Source of the DNA: Mesaphorura yosii
Lineage: Eukaryota > Arthropoda > Collembola > Poduromorpha > Tullbergiidae
DNA length: 64,000 nt
Direction of reading: 5' to 3'
NCBI GenBank assembly: GCA_009869945.1
Contig: WIXG01000031.1
Coordinates: 248,001 to 312,000, forward strand
Each line of letters opens with the position of its first letter. The first letter of the stretch is position 1. Shown here piece after piece: positions 4,087-39,319 of the stretch. The translations under genes and the position numbers were made by a program. Under the pieces are notes generated by a model. That model was not told the DNA's origin. It ran no database searches and saw nothing but the letters and a program-made list of their open reading frames with translations.

Positions 4087-4414
4087 ATGAGCCGTTCATT
4101 CCGTACGTTACAATTAGTCGCAAATACATCAAATGCATGGTCAAATTGTATCGACGATTTCCCTCACGCTCATTATAGCTAACGTAATCACAAGCGAAAC
4201 ACAAATGAATCAACCACCTACAACAGATCCCGCACAGCCTGAACACCGAAATCGAAACAAATGCTTCGAAGACTGCTGCGAAATATTTGGTGACTCATTT
4301 GTGAGTGCTTTCTGTCGTTCAGGGAGCAGAAGCCAGGATTACAGTGCCGACGGAGCGGAAGGAGGACTTGAACATGGCTGCTGCAGCGACGATGGCTGCG
4401 ACTGTGACTGCTGA
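4087..4414 (+). CDS. Small cysteine-rich protein, cluster member A
   Basis: First of four tandem genes sharing an NVITSE motif and a Cys/Asp-rich tail. Exon 2 (4179-4414) begins in phase 1 and reads ANVITSETQMNQPP or PNVITSETQMNQPP depending on the joined base; it ends CCSDDGCDCDC. The best exon 1 is 4087-4102 (MSRSF plus one base, donor GTACGT), which gives a 76-nt intron and 83 residues. This exon was chosen because genes C and D have the same phase-1 mini-exon; it is less certain than exon 2. There is no signal peptide or membrane segment. A poly(A) signal lies at 4641-4646. Function is unknown. The Cys clusters could bind metal, or be palmitoylated; a distant likeness to the Cys-rich C-terminus of I-mfa (MDFI/MDFIC) proteins is possible. 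Confidence 0.6.
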
Positions 4415-5068
4415 GCGGCCAATTCTCCATTTCCCATATTTTGTAAACATAGTCACTTTGGGCATTTATGTTCAAGAGTTGGACCTTGAACTTGTGTGCA
4501 TTTCTGTTTATAAACCGTTTAGGCGATCTCGGCAGTGATTTCACTAATTTCGTCCAACCATGTCATCGAACGCTTTCCAAGATTTGTTTAGAACAGGGAC
4601 GCAACGCAACAATGCATAATTGTCCAGCTTATTCTTGTCAAATAAAAGATTCTGTGAATCTTCGATCAGGATTACCGAATGGTTTTTGTTTCATTCTTGT
4701 CTTTCTTGTTTACTTCTTGCGAAGAGAATACGATACCATGTGCTCAGGCGAACTTATGACTCGGTTTCTATTCTCTAGATTGGCAAAAAATCACAACACG
4801 TATCAGTGACCGACTGAAGCTATTGTGGGGTTTGCGGGGAATGTTTTGAAGTACGGAGTTTGTTTAGCTAAGATGAATCACACTTTATTTCGTGTGTGTG
4901 TTTCTTCATGTTAATGAGATTAGTAACATAATTAAACATTAATGCAATTGTTTATCATGTATGCATGGTTAAGCCACTTCATTCATTCAGTAGCACGTCT
5001 GTTTTCCTCCTTTGCAACTACTGCAACGCAATTTAATGTGAGTGTTCTGTTTTCTCATACTCTCCGTT
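4415..5068 (+). other. Spacer with 3' UTR of gene A
   Basis: Holds the gene A 3' UTR with AATAAA at 4641-4646, then AT-rich spacer to the left target duplication of the MITE. Short open frames here look like chance. Confidence 0.5.
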
Positions 5069-5075
5069 AGCAAGA

Positions 5076-5625
5076 CAGGGTTGTACATCTAGTCTGGCCA
5101 GGGGATAAAACCCGATGGCCAAAAGGGGTTTTATCCCCCACGTCCAGGGTGGCCAAAAGGGGATAAAAGGGGCCAAAATAAAAATCACGCCAAATCAATG
5201 CGGTAGTTGCAGGAAACCATTGCAGCAATTGTTCGCTACATATTTTCATTGTGTACATTCAATGCAATCAGCATCGTACGAATTCGGAGAGTGAGATTTC
5301 GATACTGCTTCGGTGTGTGTTGCAGAGACTGCTCGTTACAGTAAAGAAATTTATCAAATTCGGGTTAAGTGATCATTTGATCGGTTCTGATCTGAAACGT
5401 TGGTTTTATTAAAATTCCAACTCCAGTATTAGCCAAAGTACGTACGTACCTCATTTCCTGTGCGCCGATTATTCTTGCGTATAAATGCACTGTTTACACT
5501 GCAGTTAGGTTTTTGAGTGTGATTAATCATTTTTAGCCCCTTTTATCCCTCTTTTGCCCCTTTTATCCACTTTTAGCCACTAGCCCGGACTAAAAACAGC
5601 CAAAGTGGCCAAAATGACAACCCTG
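5076..5625. mobile_element. hAT-like MITE (non-autonomous DNA transposon)
   Basis: The element of about 550 nt starts CAGGGTTGT and ends ACAACCCTG, the terminal inverted repeat style of hAT elements. It is flanked by a direct repeat agcaaga at 5069-5075 and 5626-5632 (7 bp; hAT elements normally make 8 bp, and the eighth base differs). Both subterminal zones carry many copies of GGATAAAA, GGCCAAAA and the reverse forms, typical of transposase-binding subterminal repeats. No transposase frame is present. The right end reaches into gene B and contains its apparent ATG (5614-5616). Confidence 0.8.
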
Positions 5626-5966
5626 AGCAAGACATCGACACCAATCTACCAAGGAGAAGTGGAAACTTCATTTGGTAAGTCCTCGAATTCCTCGATTTAT
5701 AGAAGCATTTTCTGTCCAGCACTACACAGCACTGCATTTTGATCACAGATGACGTAATTACGAGTGAGACACAAATGAATCAAACTTCTCGACCAATTAC
5801 CGCGCAACCAAAGTCCAGTGGGGACTACGGTTGGTGCGACGCCTGCCTGGATGCCGTTTGCTCTTCTACTGAAAGCTCTGGTCATGGACTGGAAGGAGCA
5901 GCATCCGGTGGGGATGGCGATCACTGCTGCTGTTGCTGCGGGGACAATTGCGACTGTGATTGCTGA
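5614..5966 (+). CDS. Small cysteine-rich protein, cluster member B, with a transposon-derived start
   Basis: Exon 1 (5614-5674) and exon 2 (5749-5966) join in phase 1 to give 92 residues: MTTLSKTSTPIYQGEVETSF, then DDVITSETQMNQTSRP, a CDACLDAVC block, and the tail HCCCCCGDNCDCDC. Exon 2 is clearly homologous to those of genes A, C and D. In C and D exon 1 is 22 nt long and begins at its own ATG. Here the last 22 nt before the donor hold no ATG, and the only in-frame one lies in the right terminal repeat of the MITE; upstream of the pre-insertion sequence the same frame meets a stop. Poly(A) signals lie at 6148-6153 and 6162-6167. Function is unknown; the tail resembles the CCCCCG..C.CD run of I-mfa proteins. 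Confidence 0.65.
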
Positions 5967-7285
5967 TGAGCGCTGACGCGTCATATCGTCCTTATCCCGG
6001 CATTCAGTGTTCAGCCTGTCAGCTGTTGATGGCACATTGGAACTGGAATCTTGTCCATCTTCTGGAATCTCGGAAGCATTGAATTGGACGGCTAACAGGA
6101 TCAATTCCAGGTTATTGCTTATACTCATACTCATGCGTCCTGATTTAAATAAACTCTTCCAAATAAATGGCGTACTTAAAACCGCAGTCTTGCAGTGCTA
6201 AATGCAAATTCGAACATTTCCTCATCCTGTCTTGGTCGAATCAAAGCATTTTATGCATACGTACGCCACGGCCACGACACCCCACTGCATGGACTACACG
6301 GATAATTCTATACTGTCGTTGCTCCCTATTCCAGGCTACAGGTAGGACCACTGCAAGTGCGACACAAACGTTGCACTGTAATTAAAAATTCTCAGCAAAA
6401 TTCCCATTCATTTTGCGATTTTGACGAATATGTGAAAATGTTCCGAATCTACGATGCAAAGGGTGACACACGATGGCACACGGTCTGCGCAGAATTGGCA
6501 CAGCCATGTCTTTTTCCAGTAAGCTGTGTTTGGAGTTAATGGGATTGAATTTTTGAGAGGGACGTGAAATGGGAGAAACCATGACACACATCCTATTGTC
6601 CTCGTTTTCATCCTAGACGCACACGCGTTCGTAATGACGGAGAACAATTCGCATGTGGAAACTGTGACGCTTGCATAGCGCGTCACCTACCACTTGAGAT
6701 AAGGTCGATGCCTTGCATGCTGATGCTGCCGAGGTTAGCGCATCGAACTAATGTCAGCTCCAAGTACATAAAAGTTGTGTCTGGATCCGGTTGCGAATGA
6801 AACATTGCCACCGTCATCAAATGAAATTGCTAATTGAGTTCTAATTAGAGTCGATTTATTCGCTGAAACGATCCTTTTATCGAGAGTGTCGACACTTATT
6901 CAATTAGTGCGCATACTTTATCGACTTTATTAAGTAAAACTCCTTTGCTTGGGATTGTCATTTTGTCTCTCCGGTTCAGAAGTTCATTTTGCAGTCTCTT
7001 GTGAATGTCTTCGGCAGTTGAATCCTTTGTTAATACAGTTTCTGGTTTCCTCGCTCATTTTGCTTGATCCCTGTTTTTTTTTCAAAAAGTGTGGTTAGTG
7101 TGGTGTAGTTCCCATTCTTGGTGAAAAACTCTGAAAAATTATAGTAGAAACTGAGCGCGTATCAGATTTACAACAAATTGCAAGAGTGCCCTTGGAGTGT
7201 TAAGAAGCTTGGCAATTTAATCTACCAGTTTTGCAGGTGAAATCTGACAAAACAGAATAACTGCGGGGCTCAAGTGAAATAAAAA
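5967..7285. other. Spacer between cysteine-rich genes B and C
   Basis: Carries the 3' UTR of gene B (two AATAAA at 6148-6167) and the 5' region of gene C. The short open frames at 6167-6686 on both strands have no protein-like pattern and no matching splice context. Nothing else is seen. Confidence 0.45.
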
Positions 7286-7731
7286 ATGACATCTTCAAAT
7301 GGTTTTGGTAAGTGACATTACGTGGAAGGACAGGGCTTTATGTCCTCCTGTGCTAAACAACTACACGCCATCGGCCTTTTGCTGCGATAAATGACTAAGT
7401 AGATTCTTTGATTCCAGATAATGTCATCACAAGTGAACCGCGACTTAATAATGCCGAGCCAGTAGGTACTGAAGCTGAGGAGGAAGAGGAGCGAAAGAAG
7501 ATGGAAGCGTCTTCCAATAATATGCATTCAATGTCAACTTCAACTCCTTATCAGGACGCCACCGATGATTGGCTTTGCACATGGTGTTGCTGGAATTGGT
7601 ACAACACGTCAGTAGCTCCATCAGGCGCCACCGGTACCTCTACCTCCAACGACTGCGATTGCTGTAGTTGCTGCTGTGATGATAACTGTTGCGACTGTGG
7701 CGATTGTGACTGCGGTGATTGCGACTGCTAG
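7286..7731 (+). CDS. Small cysteine-rich protein, cluster member C
   Basis: Exon 1 is 22 nt (7286-7307, MTSSNGF plus one base, donor GTAAGT) and exon 2 is 7418-7731, giving 111 residues. After the splice comes DNVITSEPRLNNAEP, then an acidic run (EAEEEEERKK), a WLCTWCCWNWY block, and a tail in which C and D alternate (DCDCCSCCCDDNCC, CGDCDCGDCDC). It is the longest of the four paralogues; the tail has been extended by small CGD/CDC repeats. A poly(A) signal is at 7938-7943. Low lysine content separates it from classical metallothioneins, although metal binding remains possible. Function is unknown. Confidence 0.72.
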
Positions 7732-8552
7732 CCCCATGGGGCCCAGCCGATGCAGTCATGCATGCAGTCCGTTCATGTATATGTCCGCTTTATTCTTTAG
7801 GATTACACTGTTGTAATTTTTTATAGTTTTATTGGCCATGGCATGATTCAAGATGAACGTTAGTGCCAATTTTTTCAGTCCACCCGTACTGTTCTGTGAT
7901 ATTTTTTCGGAGATTTTTGATTAACAATAATGTGAATAATAAAAGAATATACTGATTTTGCGTGTTCATGTCGCGTTTCTTTTGAAGTCACGAAGGAACA
8001 CCTCGAAATCAGAAATCTACTGTGCGTAACATCAAATTCAATTATAATTAAGCAGAAGCGAGAGTAGCTGCTTTCAGCCGTCTCATTTGCCTAACAAGCA
8101 ATGCTAATTCAGTGCTCTCTGGTTGAGTTAGGATTCATGAATTCAACATGTGAAAACAGAATCTCATGCGTGCGTGTCGGAATTAATGTCTGTGTCGTTG
8201 CTTGAACTGAACCCACAACAATATAGCATCCTGTTCCAGATGTCATGCTTGCCACTGTAATTGCGCGTGTGAATACGGTAGCATGACTAAAATCAGTCGA
8301 AAACCATGGACTCAGTTAGTAGGTACGCCATGTGGAAAGTGAATGGAAATTCAATTGAGCAATTTTGCAGCAACTCATTTCCGTGATGGTCGCGAACTCG
8401 CAAGTTGCAAGCATCGTTAGTCTTGTGATTAAGTTTCGATTTCGAAAGAGAGTAAGGAGATCATTAGCTCCCAAATTGGCATCATTCTTCAACAAAGTTT
8501 TACAACCTGTGTTTTGTCGAAAATATTTGATGACAGTATTTGCACAATACAA
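7732..8552. other. Spacer between cysteine-rich genes C and D
   Basis: Contains the 3' UTR and AATAAA (7938-7943) of gene C and the promoter side of gene D. The two overlapping open frames at 8316-8601 on opposite strands look like chance; only the last 22 nt of that stretch, exon 1 of gene D, is supported. Confidence 0.45.
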
Positions 8553-8912
8553 ATGGCATTGGAGGCAGCGAGAGGTAAGCATAAGACGAAGTATGGATTA
8601 ATCGCCCACAAGTGCATGAATCGGTAATCTGCTTGGATTCAATCATGGCGACTCTCTTGTCTCTTTCAAGGTGGCAATGTGATTTCGAGTGAGAGCGAAA
8701 TGAATCAATTATCCGCACCGATAACAATGACAATGCCCACGAAACCTGATGGCGAAGACAACTGCTGTAATTCCTGTCCGTGTTGGTGCTGTTGTGAACC
8801 TTTGTGCGAACTTTTGCAATGTCTTGACTGCTTGGTTAAATGCATCCCGGAGTGCTTAGGAGCCTGTGGACAGAGTGGAGGAGAATGCGGTGGTTGTTGC
8901 AATGATTGTTGA
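8553..8912 (+). CDS. Small cysteine-rich protein, cluster member D
   Basis: Exon 1 is again exactly 22 nt (8553-8574, MALEAAR plus one base, donor GTAAGC) and joins exon 2 at 8671 in phase 1, giving 87 residues. It reads GGNVISSESEMNQLSAP, then a block in which about every third residue is Cys: CCNSCPCWCCCEPLC, CLDCLVKCIPECLGACG and a final CGGCCNDC. Of the four it looks most like the I-mfa type pattern of spaced single and double cysteines. The AATAAA at 9021-9026 lies inside the terminal exon of IFT27 on the other strand, so the two transcripts probably overlap tail to tail. Function is unknown. Confidence 0.72.
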
Positions 8913-20340: not shown

Positions 20341-21783
20341 TTATGGTGGTCCTCGGATCCACTGTTCCTCGTACTCCGGCAGCAGAAAGCCAGGCTTCAG
20401 TGCTGTTTGTGTTTCTTGAAATCCTGCAGCAGCTATATCGGTTTCTCGATGGCCAACCATTTCGCAGATAATTTCTGCAACAGAACAAGACGAGTGTTGA
20501 GGTACATGTAGAATAGTGCGTTTAGTCAAATTTTAAATACATACCGTCAAGCACAGCACAGGACACGATCTTCTTATCCATCTCTGTGAGAACTTCTTTC
20601 GTCAGCCACGGCTGAACCAGGTCTAAGATTTATAGAAGCAGAAGATTAATCATATAGCAAGAGCCGAACAGCTGAACGATTGGCTTGTGATGTCCAATAT
20701 GTTATGCCTAACTAACCTGCCAAATATGCAGTAGTGTTTAAGCCTTCATTCTCCAGACTAATCAGCAGCTGTGGAATGAGATTCATCAGATATGATCGCG
20801 AAAATTGCGTGGCGCAAACTCCGTCTTCGACCTCGTGCTCTTCTCGAATCTCCTTGATGTACCGCTTGACCAGTTTCTCTTGCTCCTCGAACATTGCACG
20901 TTGGCGCACGTACAGGAAATGTTGCTCAAGCTGCTCCACTCGCCTTCTGTCCTCGAACTCATTCTGGCGAGCACGAAGCTCCCAGAGCTCTTCTTCCTCC
21001 TTGGCTTCCAACATCGATTGCTGAACCACTTTGTCAGCCAGAGTCTCGACGACTGGCTCGACCTCCTCGTCGAAGCTGTACAGATTCCGAACGTCCATTT
21101 CTGTCGAGACATCGTAGCCAATCTTCGCCACCACTGGACAGTCACGCGGTGATTTGAGATTGATGTAGTCGGTTTGTGCTTCTGCGTCCGCTTCGGCAAC
21201 CGCTGCCACGTCCTCCTCGAGAAATTTCTCGATTGGAACTCGTGTACCTCGACCGCCAATATCTAGTGGAGTATTTGGTCGTTCAATACCACCGAACAAA
21301 ATTGATCTGGGCTTTCGCTTATTTGGTTTCCGCTTGCACTGTGCAGAGAGGCGTTCCTTCTCGACCTAGTCAGAGTACCATAATCATTAAATCCTGGCAG
21401 GAGATCTTTCAATCAAGTTAACGCACCGCCTGGAATGTTTTGAATGTCTCCCCACGGTACACACGAGGATCCCACATCAAGTTATAGAAATCTCTGGTGC
21501 TTTGAGGCCTGCGTGAAGTATCAATATGATTTTGGCGTTTAAATGCTTTATGTAATAATTTAAAGTTGGTTTAAGCCAACTTTACAGCCCCCGAACGATA
21601 TTTGGGTCTTGCCAGCTTGCATGGCTTCGGCGTGCTTGCGTACACGTAGTATCCCAAATGCTTCGGCATTGGTTTGGAAATGTATTCTGTTGAGGGGACC
21701 CTGGCGTTAATTGTCATCGTTCTAGAGCCTCTGTTGTGAGCTCCAGCCCGACGAATCTTGAGGCAACCTCTGTGACTGGTCAT
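20341..21783 (-). CDS. RSPH3: Radial spoke head protein 3
   Basis: RSPH3 is the dimeric stalk protein that docks radial spokes on axonemal doublet microtubules and acts as an A-kinase anchor; it marks motile cilia or flagella. Exons are 21581-21783, 21427-21508, 20717-21365, 20545-20622 and 20341-20474 (381 residues). Family blocks run in order: FYNLMWDPRVYRGETF, RPNTPLDIGGRGT, VSTEMDVRNLYSFDEEVEPV, ETLADKVVQQSMLEAKEEEE (the spoke dimerisation and helix start), a long charged coiled coil, FSRSYLMNLIPQLLISL, PWLTKEV and VLDEIICEMVGHRE. The donor closing exon 1 (GTTGGC) is weak but is the only one that keeps phase. Human RSPH3 is longer at both ends. Confidence 0.9.
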
Positions 21784-22341: not shown

Positions 22342-22938
22342 TTACAAAAGGACTGAGTGAGTCTTGACGACCGCTGGAGCAGCGATGACCTTCGCGGCGG
22401 GTGCTCTGTGGAAGGTGCTGGTGCTGTAGGCGACTGGAACGGGAGCAGCAGCGACGATTGGGGCAGCCGGAACCACGTGAGTTGTGCGGATGACTGGTGC
22501 GGCCACGACAGGAGTCACGGTGCGAACGACTGGAACTGTGCGCACGATTGGAGCAGGAGCCACAACGGTGCGAACGACTGGAACTGTGCGCACGATTGGA
22601 GCAGGAGCCACAACGGTGCGGACCGCTGGAACTGGGGCGACGACTGGCACGGTGCGGATAACCGGAGCGGCAACGACTGGGGTCACAGTGCGGACGACTG
22701 GCACAACAGGAGCCGTACGAACCACGGTTGGTGTGAAGACTGGAGTGGCAACGGTTCTGACAACGGTTGGCGCAGCAAGCACCACTGGAGCTGGAGCCAC
22801 AGCAATGTTTCCGGCATTGGCAACAGCCAAGAGGGCAGAGACGATAACGATTGACTGCAAAGAAGGCAATTACAAAACCATATTTTATACGGTTAAAGGA
22901 ATAGGATGCGACTCCTGGGATTTAGAACTTACAATCAT
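22342..22938 (-). CDS. Val/Pro/Ala-rich cuticular protein
   Basis: Exon 1 is only six bases (22933-22938, M-I) and joins exon 2 (22342-22854) to give 172 residues. MISIVIVSALLAVANAG is a signal peptide. The mature part is a chain of VVRTV/APVIRTVPVV units, including a near-exact tandem repeat (APAPIVRTVPVVRTVV twice), and ends VVKTHSVLL. Such low-complexity Ala/Val/Pro secreted chains are typical of arthropod cuticle. A TATA box sits upstream at 23052-23045. The long open frame on the opposite strand is a composition shadow. The plus-strand cuticle gene at 28396 has the same design and a similar end (VVKTHHTYAAGPVLL). Confidence 0.85.
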
Positions 22939-29045: not shown

Positions 29046-29474
29046 GTAACTCCTGCACAATGAACTTGGAGACCCACCCTGATTAAAGTTCCCCGTCCTT
29101 CAAAATTGCCCTGTACTAATAGCTTTGCTCAATCCAGTCCAGTCCACCATGTGATACACGAATTGGAAACGAAACACTAAACAAACTTCAACTTGCAGAA
29201 AACTGTCCATCCTCTTGCCATTAAACTGCAAATTAATACTCAGTTGTTTTCTACTCAATTTTGTATTGTTAAACTTTTGTACAAAATGATTCGAATTCAA
29301 TAAATGTTAAATTCTCCGTCTGACATATTTGCCTTATTATCTCACTTCATAAAAAAATTACAGGTTACAGGGTTGTATAACCTATCTACAATAGCCAGGC
29401 TAACCAAACACCTGCACATCATCTAAATGTAAATCAGCATTAGTTGGACATCTTAATAAGAAGAGACTGAAGCG

Positions 29475-29928
29475 CTATAGGTTCTTGCCGATTTGATCGT
29501 TTCTGTGCTGGCGGAATTTCGACGACTCGCAATCATCAATTTCTTGATCACAGCTTAATTCAGACTCAGAAAAGGCAGGTTCGAAGTAGAAGATTTTTTC
29601 TCGTCTTTCCTCCTGTTCTTGCTATTAAACAATAAAACAAGTTTCAACCAAAAGTGATAGTAAAAGCATCGAGTGACTGTCTATGGATGAAATTTCTCAC
29701 CTTTTTACTGATTGCTTCAGTAAGCTGGCTTGCAAAAGTTGTATTGGCGGCACGATGAGGGTGAGAATCTAATTGAGTGACCCGTAATAGCGGCGTCTTT
29801 TCATTAAGACTCAACTTGTCAATCACTGCTAGATCCTTTGCCCGACAGCAGGGCTCAGTTTCACCATTTTCTTTACTTGACAGACATTCACTGTTTTGGC
29901 AGAAGCAAAGGTAGCAAAAGAAGCACAT
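29475..29928 (-). CDS. Small protein with a cysteine-rich N-terminus, function unknown
   Basis: Two exons (29701-29928 and 29475-29621) join in phase 0 to give 124 residues. The ATG at 29928 is preceded by an in-frame TAA, which fixes the start. MCFFCYLCFCQNSEC carries six Cys in its first 15 residues without a hydrophobic signal core, as in palmitoylated peripheral membrane proteins. The middle has DKLSLNEKTPLLRV, which contains a dileucine-like EKTPLL sorting motif. The end is acidic and polar (YFEPAFSESELSCDQEIDDC). The combination suggests a lipid-anchored endosomal or trafficking adaptor, but this is inference; I do not recognise a family. Confidence 0.65.
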
Positions 29929-30571
29929 TTAGATGTGTTGGAGCCAAAAGTCACAATTGAAATCTTGTTATGATCGAAGGATCGCAGAATTTCGCAAAAA
30001 CGTGCAGGCGACGAGTGCAACGCAATAAAATAGTATCTTGTTGGACTAAATGCGCGATGTAAGGACGAGCCGAAAACGTAGTGAGTGCACAGGCAAATGC
30101 GTTATCTTATCGATTTTTGTTATGACGCGAGTTTCGCACTAATTTTATTCAACCATTCAACATGAACCGTATTTTGAAACGAGTCGCATGTGTGAACAAT
30201 CAGAGTAAACATGAAGTGAGTACAAACTAGACAAATCGATTCTATTATATTTGGTCCTACTCCTACTTGTCAATTGCTTGTCTAACTAGATATTACTTAT
30301 CCTACTTATCAACTAGCGACAGAGATTGCTTAATCAGGTGAAAGAGACTTGACGGACTCTCACAACCTTGAATTCTTTAAAGAACTGATTGATCATTGCC
30401 GCAGGAATTGATAATAAACCACATTTTCTTAGTGTTGGCCAGTTTAATGCATGAAGATTGTCACTCTTGAATTTTTAACTTGTATTGTTGGTTACCCTCT
30501 TGAGTATTCTGAAATATGCAATGAAATAAATGCCCTATTCGTTTGGCATTGATGTTGCGTTTCACATACCG
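29929..30571. other. Spacer between two small minus-strand genes
   Basis: Holds the 5' region of the 29475 gene and the 3' flank of the gene at 30572. The frame at 29829-30020 is its 5' UTR in another frame. Nothing else is seen. Confidence 0.4.
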
Positions 30572-30883
30572 TTACTGGTGAGGAGGAATACTTTTTACTC
30601 CGTTTTTAATTACGTCGATTCCGGCAGCCGACGTGTCGATGAATCCTGTGAAAAGATTCCACGGAAATTGTCCAATTGTTGTCTGTTCAACGTGATCGTG
30701 CTCGTTGTGATGGGGAGAAGGTGGTGGTGGCGCGTAATGCTGTTGCACGGGAGCGGTAGGAGGTTGTACGGGAGCGGGAGCCTCGACGACTTGCGAGCCT
30801 GGCCTTGATTCGGCAGTACTTGAGAAGATGACCAACATGAAGGCACACGTTAGGAAGAAACCTGACTTAATTTGGTAGTGCAT
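30572..30883 (-). CDS. Small Pro/His-rich secreted protein
   Basis: One coding exon gives 103 residues from ATG 30883. MHYQIKSGFFLTCAFMLVIF is a signal peptide with likely cleavage after SSTAES. The mature part is Pro/Val/His-rich (EAPAPVQPPTAPVQQHYAPP, SPHHNEHDH) and ends in a less biased FPWNLFTGFIDTSAAGID segment. The start MH.QI, the signal peptide, the biased middle and an LFTG motif near the end are shared with the gene at 31992-32450, so the two may be diverged neighbours of one secreted family. Function is unknown. Confidence 0.65.
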   Translation of the reverse strand: MHYQIKSGFFLTCAFMLVIFSSTAESRPGSQVVEAPAPVQPPTAPVQQHYAPPPPSPHHNEHDHVEQTTIGQFPWNLFTGFIDTSAAGIDVIKNGVKSIPPHQ

Positions 30884-31991
30884 TCCGACCACAAAGAAAG
30901 CAAATTCGGAGCAAAGTCTATTCTAATTTCAGGCAGCTTCTCAACGTCTCCCAGAATCCAGACAGACGGTAATTAATTTGACTAACAATGCAGTAACGCC
31001 TCTTCTGCAGTTTATTTGTGCACAATGATATTACCTTTGTAGTAAAAGAACGTCAGGTCGGGATAAATTCACCTGTCGTACAGCGCGTGAACGGCGGCAC
31101 TGGCACCTAAAAGGTGAAGGGCTTGTGCCTGAAAACACGTCAAGAGCTGGTGACAGAACAGAAAAACAGATCTTTGGTCTTGGCAGTGAGTTGGTATTTG
31201 CCGGATGTTGTTACGATTCGAGTTGAGTTAGTTTACATGCAACCACAAATCTAGATTTTAGACATAAACTCACATTTTAAGCATAGATTTTTATTGCATG
31301 TAAACGCTCGACAAAATCTAGATTTCTGTGAATGGGAGAATCCGTGTTTAAAATTTAGGGTTGGAGAAACTTGATAAACCTAATTGCACAAGGTAGGTTT
31401 GGACCCGAAAACTAGATTTATCCCATCCACTGCCGTAGATTTTTTATACTTAACACGAAATCACACCGAACACGTAAACTCGTCGAGCACGATTGTCGGA
31501 TTTTTTAATCGCTGGTCGTAATTTCACCCCTTGGTGGCTGGAATTCCAGACAGGCTTTACAACCCTGCTGCCAGCGCATTGTTCTGTATGCGGTCGGTTC
31601 GTCGCCTTCACTCCGCAACTGCACCCGTACAACCGCCGAGCTTCATTAACCTTTTTTTTTAGAGCCTAGAGTCCCACGTGAGCCATAGGCCATCCTGACT
31701 CCTGAATGACTCATACTGTAAAAGCAATCCGAATGCTTCCGCTGAGGCAGAAAATGTTCATGAACATGGGATGGCTAATACGCAAATCTGGCATATTTAA
31801 TTTTTAATTCACAAAATGTAGCATTAAGGAATACAATAAATGTTGAGATGAGACTCAGGAAAGTTAGGAATGCGACCGAGAGAGCCCGAACTGAAAATTC
31901 GAAGAAATGAAACTAAACTAAACTAAACCTTTGCAATTCGTAGTCAAAACACGGGAAGACTTTTTGTCAGCCTTGCAAATATTACCTCGCA
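30884..31991. other. Spacer between two small secreted-protein genes
   Basis: Contains the inverted repeat listed separately at 31231-31305 and a run of ten T at 31652-31661. A minus frame at 31450-31632 has no support. No gene is seen. Confidence 0.4.
31231..31305. repeat. Short inverted repeat with CTAGAT palindromes
   Basis: GTTTACATGCAA (31231-31242) is repeated exactly inverted as TTGCATGTAAAC (31294-31305), 51 nt apart. The palindrome AAATCTAGATTT occurs inside the loop (from 31247) and again just outside (within 31313-31325), with a decayed copy near 31409. It looks like a small foldback or a decayed MITE; no target duplication is clear. Confidence 0.45.
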
Positions 31992-32450
31992 CTACTTTTT
32001 CCCAAAAAAGTTTTCAAAACCTGGGAATTTAAACCCGCTGCCCCTGCCCCATGACTTTCCTGTAAAAAGGTCCACAAGAATGTACAGCGGATTTTTTGAT
32101 GATGCTGTGCGCCAGCTGCCGAAAGCTCTTGTTTTTCTGTCATCATCTGTGACGTAGGCCGGAGTAATTAATGGTCGTGTGCGTACGGTGGTTGTGGTTG
32201 TCGGTGCTGTTGTAGGAATGCTGTCCGTGGTCGTTTTAATTTCATTCGTTGTTTTGTTCGTGGTGGTTTCTGACCCAAGTGCGCTGGTGCTGGTAGTGGT
32301 CTCATCCGGCGTCGCTGAAGGTGCCGCGCTATTCGCTGGCGCCACTGTGCTTGTCCCGATCTCGTCAGTAATAACGGGAGTTGATTTCACGATGTAGAAA
32401 GCGCAAAGAATCAGCGCAAAGCGGAGAACGGGTCTGATTTGATTATGCAT
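31992..32450 (-). CDS. Thr/Ser-rich mucin-like secreted protein
   Basis: From ATG 32450 the single exon encodes 152 residues. MHNQIRPVLRFALILCAFYI is a signal peptide. The middle is dominated by Thr, Ser and Ala (EIGTSTVAPANSAAPSATPD, TTTSTSALGSETTTNKTTN), a mucin-like stretch expected to be O-glycosylated. The end switches to ordered, aromatic and basic text (NPLYILVDLFTGKSWGRGSG, FPGFENFFGKK). The same frame stays open upstream to 32780, but that part is not secretory and the signal peptide sets the start. It is probably a matrix, gut-lining or cuticle surface protein; I do not know a family. Confidence 0.65.
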   Translation of the reverse strand: MHNQIRPVLRFALILCAFYIVKSTPVITDEIGTSTVAPANSAAPSATPDETTTSTSALGSETTTNKTTNEIKTTTDSIPTTAPTTTTTVRTRPLITPAYVTDDDRKTRAFGSWRTASSKNPLYILVDLFTGKSWGRGSGFKFPGFENFFGKK

Positions 32451-33327
32451 GATAATACTGTATGCTGGCCAGTCAAGTGATTTCTCTGCTTTGACGTTTG
32501 GTTTGCAATGGCAGCAGAATGTATAAGCAAAAACCGTCAGAACAGTTTTGAGGAATAATCGCGGCATTGGCAATTTTAAGAAGTAATGAAGGCCAGCACA
32601 GAGAGGAAAATAAAGTCGCTCTCTTAGATCCCCAAAGCCTTGATGGTGTTTGTTCCACGTGCCAACAATTAAAATCACTCTCAGATGGGTAGTGTATTCC
32701 CTAACCGTAAACATCAAACGAAACGTCAGCCTTTTTAACCTGTAGCAAATAAGTGCCCGTGCGATGCAGTCTCGGGTCACCTTGTATTAGTCCTTCATCT
32801 CAAGAGTGCCTAGTTTTTAAGTACACAAATAATTCAATTCAAGTCGATTTATAGACTTCTTGTTTTGGTCAACATGTATAAATGCTGCAAGATGAGATCA
32901 CAAGATGTGTATTCATCTCTTTTTCCAACAATATGGTTTTGACTCATGCTTTGTCAGTACACCTGTTTATGAAACTGGGTCTGTATTGGACGTTGGAGAA
33001 GTTAACCATTTAAATCCCGATGTGGATAGGCTTATGGTCGCTATTGTATGGTGGTTGCAATGAAATACATTTTTCAGCTGCAGTTTATCGACTCTGGCAC
33101 TGCGCAGATGACAAATGAGGATCAACACACTTTGTAAACATTGTTATCACTTGATCACATGTTTTCCTCTCGCAACACGATAAAAAGATGAACCAGACCG
33201 TCAGAGGCAAAAGGAATATTTTACTTAATGTCATCCTGGCCAGGCTGAACGCTGACAAATTAGCGGGCGTTCAGAACAGAAGATCGATAAAGATTAGTAT
33301 TTGACCAGCTTACCCATAAAGTCCGCC
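32451..33327. other. Divergent spacer between the mucin-like gene and GBA
   Basis: Shared upstream region. The minus-strand frame runs open to 32780 as noted, probably untranslated leader. The rest is AT-rich with nothing recognisable. Confidence 0.4.
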
Positions 33328-35349: not shown

Positions 35350-35740
35350 CATCGAAGGTGCAAAGTACGGAATTTGAACAGAGTGTGCGTGGATTGCATC
35401 TTGCGTGCTGAGGAACTTGAAACCCAAATTTTCAGATTTTCTATTGAGGCGAATCGGAGAAGAAACAGCTTGATATGCCTTAGTAACTTTTCGGAGCAGA
35501 TTAGGATTAAAGTAGATATCGGATATCATCATGAGTGATGGCTATTCATTCAATAGAAGTAGAACTATTAATTACTATGATTCATTCAAGGTTCTACACA
35601 GCACGAAAGTTTTCCGGACGTTAGAATTCATTAGAATTTTAGGACACAGAAATTAGGAGAGATCATTTGGTCTATCTCCTCACTATTTGTACAATTTTTG
35701 TAACATAAAGCAAAATCTGAAGAGCAAAACGTTGGAAGCA
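35350..35740. other. Spacer between GBA and the F-box gene
   Basis: AT-rich 3' flank of GBA and 5' flank of the next gene. A minus frame at 35338-35532 overlaps the GBA end and has no support. Confidence 0.4.
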
Positions 35741-37846
35741 ATGGCACAGCCCAGCAAGCGTCTGAAGACATCAATTAAACCAGTCGAACTCCAAGGAACT
35801 GCACCTTCGGCGCCTCGACGGACAAACATTTGCCATCTGCCGAATGAGGTTACCAAAATTCATTTTTCATTTAGTAATGCTTCCTTTCGGGTATTCCAAA
35901 TAGTTCATTCTCAGTGGGAACGTCTTTTCAGCTCTTACACAAAGTGTTCGGCTTATTACCTCAGAAGAATTTGGAAGCATGCATCTACGTCAGCAATCAT
36001 TGGTCTGCTTATATCAATGGAGGCATGGGACTCAAAGTACAAGTTGGCAAGAACGTGGAAAATTGTCGATATGAATCGATGTGGTGGATTTGGGGTACAC
36101 GACTACGACTACGACGCTCACAACCGCAAACAGACGATGACATGAAGAAGGTTCTCATCGGCTCGATCGATTTCGTCGAAAAATTTGGAGTCAGTGAGTG
36201 TTGGTTTCAAGGCTGCATTCCCAGAAAAGACGTTCGCTTCAAATACCCGTTCTTGGTTCGGAAATTAACGTTCGACTGTTCTATTCCGACTCACAACTTT
36301 AAAACTCTGATGTCACCTTTAACAACTCTTCAAGAATTGACGCTGAGCCAGTTGACGCTTCTGAACAAGCATGTCGGCCTAGTTCCATTGTCTCTTCCGC
36401 ATCTGAAGACGTTGATTATCTCCGGCCGGAGTCTCTGCCAAAATATTCGCTGGAAGAATCGCACGGTTCAAAATTGGAGACAAATGGTATTGAACATTCT
36501 CTTCATCCTTCGAGAAATGACGTTCCCACGAATCAATGAAGTTGTACTGCAAACTCTGAATGTTTCGTCTACGAAGCAAGAGGACATGATCATGGAGGAA
36601 CTGGTCAACTTTTTAGCTCGACAAAAGAAAACTTTACGCAAGATTTCCATTCTGATTCGTCACCATTCAAAGGGAAAACTCAAGACTGAGCACACCAATC
36701 AATTTCGATAGTCTTACGGCTTTGTTGGAAAATATTCAGCTGGAATCCATTTTCGTCCGTAATTGCAGGCACGACTCCACGACACGGCGAACTCAGGAGC
36801 TGCTTTCGTTTTGCTTGAATCAAATTGCGCAGACATCAATGCACAACGTTAAACATTTCACTTGGTTGTTTCACCCTCAAGCCCTCGTGCTCTTCCAACC
36901 CGGCCCATTCATTACAAACAACTCCAGATAACTGGTTTCTGTTGAGATGAAACTCTCGCCGTATCTGCGCCTGGTCAATTGTGACATGTTCAAGAACTGT
37001 TCTTCATTGAATATACTGAAGCTGAAGGCGGGCAGCAGACTTTTCGCAGCAAATGGAAGATTGGATCCTCAAGCCAAACTGTTCAACCTTGGCTCTCTTC
37101 CCGGAAACCTGAAACACCTGTCGCTGGTTGGATTCGAAATTTTGAAGCAAGACTCGCAACATTTGGGCAATCTCTCGCATCTGAACGCGCTGGAATTAAT
37201 TAAAGCGGGTACGAAGACGGACTTCGGACTCAGCAATCTCGTTCTCTCGCACATTCTCAACAAGAAAACTGTGGGAGTGATTCGACTAAAGCACTCTTTA
37301 AACACTTCCGGCGTGAATACAAATCAAGGACGTGGGTTGCTGACCTTTGGCGTCGACACAGTGATGGAGCAGCACGGTGGCGACATCGTTCTGAAGCTTG
37401 TGCAAAACACTTACAAGCTTTGCCTTCTCATGTGTAAGTTAGCCGGTTCGGACCGCATCGGCTTCGCGAATGACAGGTCAAGATACTTCAACAATCCTGC
37501 CACCCCAACGTATTTCTACGATAATGCGGAAGGAAACTCGAAGGAATGGAAAGTCGAAGCCGATGTGCTGTCTGATAGGGATACGAATGCGATTGGTCAT
37601 TACCATCATTATCGGACGATGCCAGCACCACCCACGAGTCTGATTTTCGTAGCAGAAGATCTGGAAATTTCTGACAGTGATGCAGACGAGGAAGCAGGAG
37701 AGGTTGACGTAGAAATAGAATCGGAAGCCGAACAGGACTCTGAAGAGGAGCGGGTGAGCAATGAGGACGAATCCGAAGACGATGACACTGACATTCGTTC
37801 TGTTTCAGCTACGTCGTCCTCTCAAGAGGACTCGGATTCCGATTGA
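35741..37846 (+). CDS. F-box protein with LRR-like body and acidic tail; frame broken once
   Basis: F-box proteins are substrate receptors of SCF ubiquitin ligases. Exon 1 (35741-35848) ends NICHLPNE and splices to 35932, LLHKVFGLLPQKNLEACIYV, which together form a standard F-box ending in HWSAYI. The body has leucine-rich repeat-like strands (FLVRKLTFDCSIPTHNF, LTTLQELTLSQLTL, LPHLKTLIISG; later LNILKLKAGSRL and LPGNLKHLSLVGFEI), and the tail is a long Asp/Glu/Ser run. The frame used from 35932 ends at 36711 while the coding text resumes one frame over from about 36705, with no good intron to explain it. A second stop at 36929-36931 is removed if an intron from about 36889 to 36946 (GTGCTC to GTTGAG) is spliced. 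This is either a recent pseudogene or an assembly indel. Confidence 0.65.
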
Positions 37847-38734
37847 GCCAACGACCCACACGAGAAGCCTCCAATTAAATTCAGACGCTGCTGTCTTGAG
37901 CTTACGCCATGCATTCTTCAAAAATTCAAAATTGAATTATTATGATGTCCACAAGAGCCAATTTTCCAAACAGTGTGACTTTGCCAGCAAGGGACTTTTC
38001 ATAAAACCAAACTCCTATTCGAATTTCTCAGAGTGCTCAGAGTCATGGCTTCAATAATATGGCACACATTGCGCTTCCCATTCTCCAGACTTCTAGCAGA
38101 CTTCTCGAACAATCTTTGCCACTCTCATTTCAAATATTCCAGTAATCCCAATGGCTTCGTGGACAATTTCTCTTAAATCGGAGCACCAATGGAACGCAGG
38201 ACTTTTGCTGGGCTGCTGTGATAGACCCCACATCTAACGCCTCCTGAGAGAAAATTTAACCGACTGCTAGGTCCGTGCCCTACTGGTCAATAAATTACCT
38301 CGCCAGTCACTGGCACCAACCTCCTCATGGTCCGACGTGTGCTGTCCAACATTATGCGTATCCATCAAGGAATTGCAGTCAGAAAAACCTTGATTACTTT
38401 TAAAGCTGTTGAAATCATGACTCATGTGTTCAGCGGCTCCTTTAGCCTTTTATGTTGTCAACACCTTTACTTCTTTTGTACTATTCCGTATCCTGGCGGT
38501 CAATTAGCTTAGGTCGAAACTTCTTTTTACATGGCTGCTGGCAGTTGAAATTTCCGCAGACATTTCAAGGCTACGGATAAGAGCGTGTTGTGTTCCACGC
38601 ATGTACCAATCACCAATTGCCCAAAGCCTAGAAGAAGAATCAGATCGATTACGCTAATTACTTGGATAAAGAAACTTGGAATCGCTCCGTGCAATAATTA
38701 ACCGCTCCTTAATTTTGCAGTTTCGAAAGCAATC
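37847..38734. other. Spacer between F-box gene and secreted charged-protein gene
   Basis: The first part is probably F-box 3' UTR. A splice acceptor-like TTTTGCAG just before 38721 suggests that a non-coding first exon of the next gene lies in this stretch, but I cannot place it. Confidence 0.4.
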
Positions 38735-39319
38735 ATGGCCAAGAAGATCTTCTCACTTCCCGTATTGCTGACTGTGCTGATTCTGCTTCAGCTGTTTCTC
38801 ATCGACGGGGGCGAATGTCGCAGAAGAAAGCGCAAGCGCCATGGCCGCGGACGCGACCATGAACATGAACGAGAGCGAAACGGGCACGGACGGCGTTCCC
38901 GTCATAGAGGAAGATCGACCCATAAGTCACGGCGTTACGAGGAGGACAACGATGTCAAGGATTCTCAGGACGAGGAAGACTCTTCGTCGCGGGACAAGAG
39001 CGATGATCGTGACAGAAACAGCGACAAAGATCGAGATCGTGAGAGAGACGACGACGACAAAAAGTCATCCAAACGTGGGAACGGCAATGTGATCGTGTTC
39101 GGAGGCACAAAGAAGAGTGACGGGACATACAAGGACCCCTGGAACGCCTCCGGCGAAAGAAGCCGCAAAAACCGTGATGGTGACAGCAACGGTAGCAATG
39201 AGAACCGCAACGGTGGTGGTTGGAACTGGGGCGGAGGTGGTGGACACGGTAGGAAGAACAGAGAATTCCCAGGCTTCGGCGGATTCGCAGACTTGCTCTC
39301 AATATTTTCATTTGGATAA
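38735..39319 (+). CDS. Highly charged secreted protein, Arg/Asp-rich with Gly-rich end
   Basis: A single coding exon encodes 194 residues. MAKKIFSLPVLLTVLILLQLFLIDGGEC is a clear signal peptide. The mature chain is first very basic (RRRKRKRHGRGRDHEHERER), then alternates Asp/Glu and Arg/Lys (DKSDDRDRNSDKDRDRERDD), then turns Gly/Asn/Trp-rich (NGGGWNWGGGGGHGRKN) and ends PGFGGFADLLSIFSFG. The bias suggests a disordered matrix, silk-like or cuticle-mineral protein, but this is inference from composition. Overlapping long frames on both strands are composition shadows. The short hydrophobic end recalls FPGFENFFGKK of the mucin-like protein at 31992. Confidence 0.7.
   Translation: MAKKIFSLPVLLTVLILLQLFLIDGGECRRRKRKRHGRGRDHEHERERNGHGRRSRHRGRSTHKSRRYEEDNDVKDSQDEEDSSSRDKSDDRDRNSDKDRDRERDDDDKKSSKRGNGNVIVFGGTKKSDGTYKDPWNASGERSRKNRDGDSNGSNENRNGGGWNWGGGGGHGRKNREFPGFGGFADLLSIFSFG

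Follow-up and report, generated by a model that had tools for sequence, protein, structure and literature searches.

Four predicted tandem genes for small acidic cysteine-tailed proteins in Mesaphorura yosii, one with a start codon apparently derived from a hAT-like miniature element

Four neighbouring gene models, here called A to D, were analyzed in a stretch of 64,000 nucleotides (nt) from Mesaphorura yosii (GCA_009869945.1, contig WIXG01000031.1, 248,001-312,000 of the forward strand). This whole stretch is hereafter the window, and positions are counted within it. The four models all lie on the plus strand, span 4087-8912 and give a clean translation after exon joining. Each consists of a short first exon (16, 61, 22 and 22 nt in A, B, C and D, respectively) and a long second exon, separated by a phase-1 intron of 76, 74, 110 and 96 nt with GT-AG borders in all four. 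The predicted proteins have 83, 92, 111 and 87 amino acids. A previous sequence-only reading of this DNA had proposed four spliced genes in the same direction with tiny first exons and phase-1 introns, and the models indeed join in frame in all four cases. Their parts are as follows.

4087-4102, plus strand: gene A, proposed exon 1 (MSRSF, phase 1; weak donor GTACGT)
4133-4178, plus strand: gene A, alternative start without splicing (MHGQIVSTISLTLIIA-, in frame with the motif)
4179-4414, plus strand: gene A, exon 2 (NVITSETQMNQ; first Cys cluster CFEDCC; tail CCSDDGCDCDC)
5614-5674, plus strand: gene B, exon 1 (ATG and first four codons are the right end of a miniature element)
5749-5966, plus strand: gene B, exon 2 (DVITSETQMNQ; Cys cluster CDAC; tail CCCCCGDNCDCDC)
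7286-7307, plus strand: gene C, exon 1 (MTSSNGF, phase 1)
7418-7731, plus strand: gene C, exon 2 (NVITSEPRLNN; acidic stretch; CTWCC; tail of CDC/GDC units ending CGDCDC)
8553-8574, plus strand: gene D, exon 1 (MALEAAR, phase 1)
8671-8912, plus strand: gene D, exon 2 (NVISSESEMNQ; long Cys-rich body; tail CCNDC; the most divergent copy)

Exon 2 of each gene opens with the peptide [N/D]VI[T/S]SExx[M/L]N[Q/N] directly after the splice. The shared (N/D)VI(T/S)SE motif reported earlier is therefore real and present in all four genes, and it is longer than stated, extending over 11 residues. The 11-position pattern was found at only four places across the six frames of the 64 kb, each where exon 2 of a Cys-tailed open frame begins; the pattern was derived from these four copies, and their 11/11 matches are by construction. 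The next-best places in the window matched 6 of the 11 positions, and the best match in each of ten first-order Markov sequences of 64 kb reached 6-7 of 11. Inside the motif, 35 of the 59 pairwise base differences fell on third, 18 on first and 6 on second codon positions (summed over the six gene pairs, which are not independent). This excess of third-position differences suggests that the peptide is what is conserved, as expected under selection on the peptide. The pattern also matched 16 viral and 7 genome-contig stretches among viral and prokaryotic contigs, none of which was a relative by tblastn. Such a lack of relatives is expected, because the family is animal.

The first Cys follows the motif after 16, 17, 41 and 18 residues in A, B, C and D, respectively. 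The first Cys clusters, read by eye, are CFEDCC, CDAC, CTWCC and CCNSC, and a Cys-free stretch, also read by eye, lies between the first cluster and the tail in A to C. The correspondence of the clusters is likewise an eye reading, and MAFFT leaves the first Cys clusters unaligned in C. The tails end with CDCDC in A and B, GDCDC (...CGDCDC) in C and CCNDC in D. The tails formerly given for A, B and D were thus read correctly, and the CDCDC given for C was not. The parts after the motif, Cys tail included, were then aligned in pairs and compared with 500 full shuffles and 500 shuffles with Cys fixed per pair. The A-B and B-C bodies scored above shuffles: the real score was reached by 0/500 full and 2/500 Cys-fixed shuffles for A-B, and by 0/500 of either kind for B-C. 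The A-C bodies (36/500 full, 28/500 Cys-fixed) and the A-D bodies (23/500, 65/500) were weakly alike, and the B-D bodies (297/500, 341/500) and the C-D bodies (125/500, 350/500) were no better than shuffles. The description of the middle part as nearly unrelated, made in the sequence-only reading, was therefore too strong. It fits B-D and C-D, does not hold for A-B and B-C, and leaves A-C and A-D as weak cases.

A signal of the form A[A/T]TAAA follows the stop codon in all four genes, first at 227, 182, 207 and 109 nt (A to D) within the 400 nt searched, and by chance such a signal occurs in 35% of 300-nt windows. On the 5' side, no 7-mer was present in at least three of the four 200-nt upstream pieces. 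The same intron phase, the conserved peptide, the likeness of the A-B and B-C bodies and the 3'-end signals together point to four tandem paralogues. The anatomy common to the predicted copies comprises a short exon 1, a phase-1 intron, the 11-residue peptide, a variable stretch of 16-41 residues, a Cys cluster, a Cys-free stretch (in A to C) and an acidic Cys tail. The proposal that the predicted genes form a tandem paralogous family is well supported.

The four proteins were compared with known families. Pfam scans, run to an E-value of 10 with the HMMER speed filters on (which can drop weak matches), gave no family for any of the four full proteins. For the isolated Cys regions they gave nothing in three cases and, for C, one bacterial family with an E-value of 5.5, which is far below the cut-off and meaningless. 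NCBIfam gave no match for any of the four. Among solved structures, D, the sole single protein queried, had no match, and the four-protein profile had one chance match (E-value of 1.7). The earlier statement that known domains are absent is borne out by Pfam and NCBIfam, neither of which gave a meaningful match. In the open-access literature, nothing recognisable as this family was present among the matches listed. From their predicted sequences, A to D look like a family without a name in the databases searched (Pfam, NCBIfam and solved structures).

First exons were evaluated among all candidates with an ATG, a length below 200 nt, phase 1 and an intron of at least 40 nt, and donors were scored over nine consensus positions. 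The donors of the modelled first exons of B, C and D score 7/9, the top score among 4, 7 and 7 candidates, and C and D each have one rival candidate with the same score. The gene A donor, TCC/GTACGT, is weak, and every first-exon candidate of gene A stays below 6/9. The tiny first exons proposed before are thus favoured by the donors of B, C and D, and are questionable where the donor of A is weak and where the exon of B begins inside a transposon end. That transposon and its flanks are as follows.

5069-5075, unstranded: target-site duplication AGCAAGA, left copy, 7 bp, flanking the element
5076-5625, unstranded: hAT-like miniature element, 550 bp, with CAGGGTTGT ends and inner inverted repeats
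5626-5632, unstranded: target-site duplication AGCAAGA, right copy, 7 bp, flanking the element

Both ends of the element read CAGGGTTGT inward as a terminal inverted repeat, and its subterminal 29-nt arms are 90% complementary. It resembles hAT miniature elements in its CAGGG-type end, its short terminal inverted repeat and its short target duplication, and it is placed in this superfamily tentatively. The right end reads CCAAAATGACAACCCTG, and the coding part of the modelled 61-nt exon of gene B begins at the ATG in it. This ATG, the sole in-frame one of the modelled exon, sits within the terminal repeat, and the empty site has none. When the element was removed in silico, the B frame, followed upstream from the last 16 nt of the exon, stayed open for 20 codons and met an in-frame TGA before any ATG; these last 16 nt contain no in-frame ATG either. 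Since there is no in-frame ATG outside the element, the modelled start codon of gene B is element DNA. Upstream of it, the first in-frame stop is at 5581, and a TATAAAT is found at 5480.

The last 16 nt of the gene B first exon were also compared with the 16-nt exon of gene A, as a lost counterpart with GTG in place of ATG; the 13 nt that follow this codon agree between the two at 6/13. In the window, with the A and B sites excluded, 1 of 21 other GTA[A/C]GT sites and 314 of 3637 (8.6%) other GT sites do as well, and 10 of the 64 codons are within one step of ATG. This GTG as a putative older start of gene B is a lead only.

Another pair of inward-facing CAGGGTTGT ends lies 2200 bp apart at 29368-31567, with 21 of their first 30 bases alike. 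No matching target duplication was found at these ends, and the stretch is possibly a related element.

These observations could be explained jointly by a hypothesis in which A to D are four paralogues encoding cytosolic proteins with a docking peptide and a thiol- or metal-binding tail, and in which gene B took its start from the hAT-like element. We consider this the best explanation, at rather less than an even chance. The N-terminal VI[T/S]SExxMNQ peptide would serve as a short docking motif for a partner, and the Cys clusters, flanked by Asp and Gly and unaccompanied by a transmembrane stretch in A to C, may form a tail that takes up soft metals or carries Cys modifications. Since A to D are acidic (net charge of -9 to -18, with 9-17 Cys each) and A to C have no transmembrane stretch, we infer that the proteins are cytosolic; D may instead sit on a membrane via its Cys/Leu-rich segment. 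For the function, our best guess, and a weak one, is a docking peptide followed by an acidic tail of thiol- or metal-binding type. In gene B, insertion of the element would have supplied the start codon, with the terminal repeat reading ATGACAACCCTG into the old exon 1.

Several points weigh against this explanation. The gene models are predicted from sequence, exon 1 of gene A is doubtful owing to its weak donor, and the body of D aligns to neither B nor C beyond composition. The putative function is inferred from composition only, and the AlphaFold model of D exon 2 is uninformative. The ends of the element are alike at 15 of the first 30 bases ungapped and are not alike beyond the first 9. 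Short terminal inverted repeats and 8-bp target-site duplications are given for hAT elements in the parts of PMC3942097 and PMC12511174 concerned with them, whereas the duplication here is 7 bp, perhaps through the loss of one base; at 550 bp, moreover, the element is too short for a transposase gene. Four other ATGs lie upstream within the element, and gene B could instead have an upstream exon or a non-ATG start, or could be a dying gene.

Other readings of the family were weighed against these data. It is unlikely that A to D are tethered to membranes in the manner of CYSTM or S-palmitoylated Cys-string proteins, with an N-terminal element, a variable linker and a lipid-anchored Cys tail. 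The order of the parts agrees with the CYSTM description: both are small, with a short N-terminal element, a variable linker (here the motif and 16-41 residues, which is not diagnostic alone) and a Cys-rich C-terminus. D also has a Cys/Leu-rich segment with a 19-residue hydropathy of 1.35 and, in its AlphaFold model, a helix of low confidence spanning exon-2 residues 47-67 (mean predicted local distance difference test score of 48.9; D exon 2 was the sole one modelled). CYSTM proteins, however, have a C-terminal transmembrane helix with 5-6 Cys, 3-4 of them consecutive, followed by an acidic residue, according to the portion of PMC10217909 that describes them. The best 19-residue hydropathies of A, B and C (0.62, 0.24 and 0.16) are nowhere near transmembrane level and that of D (1.35) is borderline. 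Many tail Cys adjoin Asp, and the longest runs free of charged residues, Asn, Gln and His are 7, 6, 14 and 11 residues (A to D). Neither CYSTM nor any other Cys-rich family of animals was matched in Pfam. CYSTM was thus rejected for A to C on hydropathy, with D borderline. A and its relatives would even less probably be secreted peptides with disulphide-forming Cys. The unspliced form of gene A, a 282-nt open reading frame from the ATG at 4133, begins with a hydrophobic N-terminus (MHGQIVSTISLTLIIA; 19-residue hydropathy of 1.51) that is signal-peptide-like in hydropathy, and the weak donor of gene A favours this form. In B, C and D, however, the reading frame that leads into exon 2 is interrupted by a stop within the intron, and no ATG lies between the last such stop and the motif, so that a secreted form would be restricted to A. 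The Cys of A to D, moreover, come as runs and CxC pairs, unlike the Cys spacing of disulphide-knotted peptides. According to PMC2234263, Cys makes up about 30-33% of metallothioneins, which lack aromatic residues and His. Crustacean metallothioneins such as Daphnia MT share with A to D the small size and the CxC and CC arrangements, and with B, C and D also CxxC. A to D differ in their lower Cys content (10.8, 12.0, 14.4 and 19.5%, against 30-33%), in the presence of aromatic residues (6, 4, 7 and 1 of W, F and Y) and in being acidic. Metallothionein was rejected on this composition (10.8-19.5% Cys, 1-7 aromatics), in agreement with the sequence-only reading.

Decay of non-functional duplicates, open by chance, would account for the lack of an ATG outside the element in exon 1 of B and for the diverged body of D; it is very improbable in view of four open frames with the same splice phase, motif differences mainly at third positions and 3'-end signals in all four genes. 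We give the least credence to a divergent I-mfa (MDFI/MDFIC) family, with a palmitoylated Cys-rich domain that binds transcription factors or PIEZO channels. A faint likeness to the I-mfa Cys region had been the only lead to a known family. By eye, CCCCCGD..CDC in B resembles MDFIC, and A to D share with MDFI, MDFIC and MDFIC2 an acidic Cys-rich C-terminus with Cys runs and CDC-type units. The likeness was examined with a hidden Markov model of three PDB I-mfa domains (MDFI, MDFIC and MDFIC2) and 1000 shuffles, filters off. The real score was reached by 751, 69, 152 and 785 full shuffles and by 416, 39, 19 and 933 Cys-fixed shuffles (A to D). The weak upward lean of B (69 full, 39 Cys-fixed) and C (19 Cys-fixed) speaks for the likeness, and the Cys-fixed values fail correction for eight tests. 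In the positive control, MDFIC2 against MDFI and MDFIC, 0/1000 shuffles of either kind were as good. The Pfam model PF15316, which recognises a true I-mfa domain with an E-value of 5.5e-35, matches none of the four full proteins or four Cys regions, and the hhalign probability was 1.5% for the four-protein profile and 0.2% for D. I-mfa proteins carry a palmitoylated C-terminal helix after CxCxCDxDC in the section of PMC12626003 on this region; A to C end at the Cys tail without the C-terminal stretch that follows this motif in MDFI and MDFIC. A to D also have 83-111 amino acids, against 211-269 in the PDB chains of MDFI, MDFIC and MDFIC2. I-mfa membership was rejected on Pfam, profile comparison and shuffles; the likeness appears compositional, and the reading is largely refuted by sequence.

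Beyond the joint explanation favoured above, one may suppose that A to D form a family confined to one lineage, made up of acidic Cys-tailed proteins of thiol- or metal-binding type that have a docking motif of their own. One copy would have lost the start codon it inherited and would have survived, now with a longer N-terminus, by capturing an ATG in the terminal inverted repeat of the hAT miniature element. This fuller version is a doubtful one. A lineage-restricted family would be a compact case of small Cys-rich genes multiplying while a short N-terminal peptide stays fixed, and gene B, if true, would be a clean example of a transposon end giving a host gene its start codon. Neither case would overturn the known picture.

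The gene content of the window points to nuclear DNA from an animal, probably an arthropod. The four genes are flanked by an ELP4-type gene (plus strand; PAXNEB domain) on one side and a Ras-type small GTPase (minus strand) on the other. Elsewhere in the window, a leucine-rich gene with an acidic tail, possibly F-box-like by eye, lies at 35657-37843 (plus strand); its frames 35878-36708 and 36932-37843 had no Pfam match. Two frames, 31995-32786 (minus strand) and 38702-39316 (plus strand), begin in the manner of signal peptides, have low-complexity middle parts and resemble each other in their FPGF-containing C-termini; the former had no Pfam match, and the latter had one below the cut-off. 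An open frame at 22345-22869 (minus strand), without a Pfam match, has a leader-like start and VAPAPVVRT-type repeats, and we take it to resemble a low-complexity cuticle protein. A radial spoke protein 3 domain is encoded at 20715-21365 (minus strand), pointing to an animal that has motile cilia or whose sperm are flagellated.

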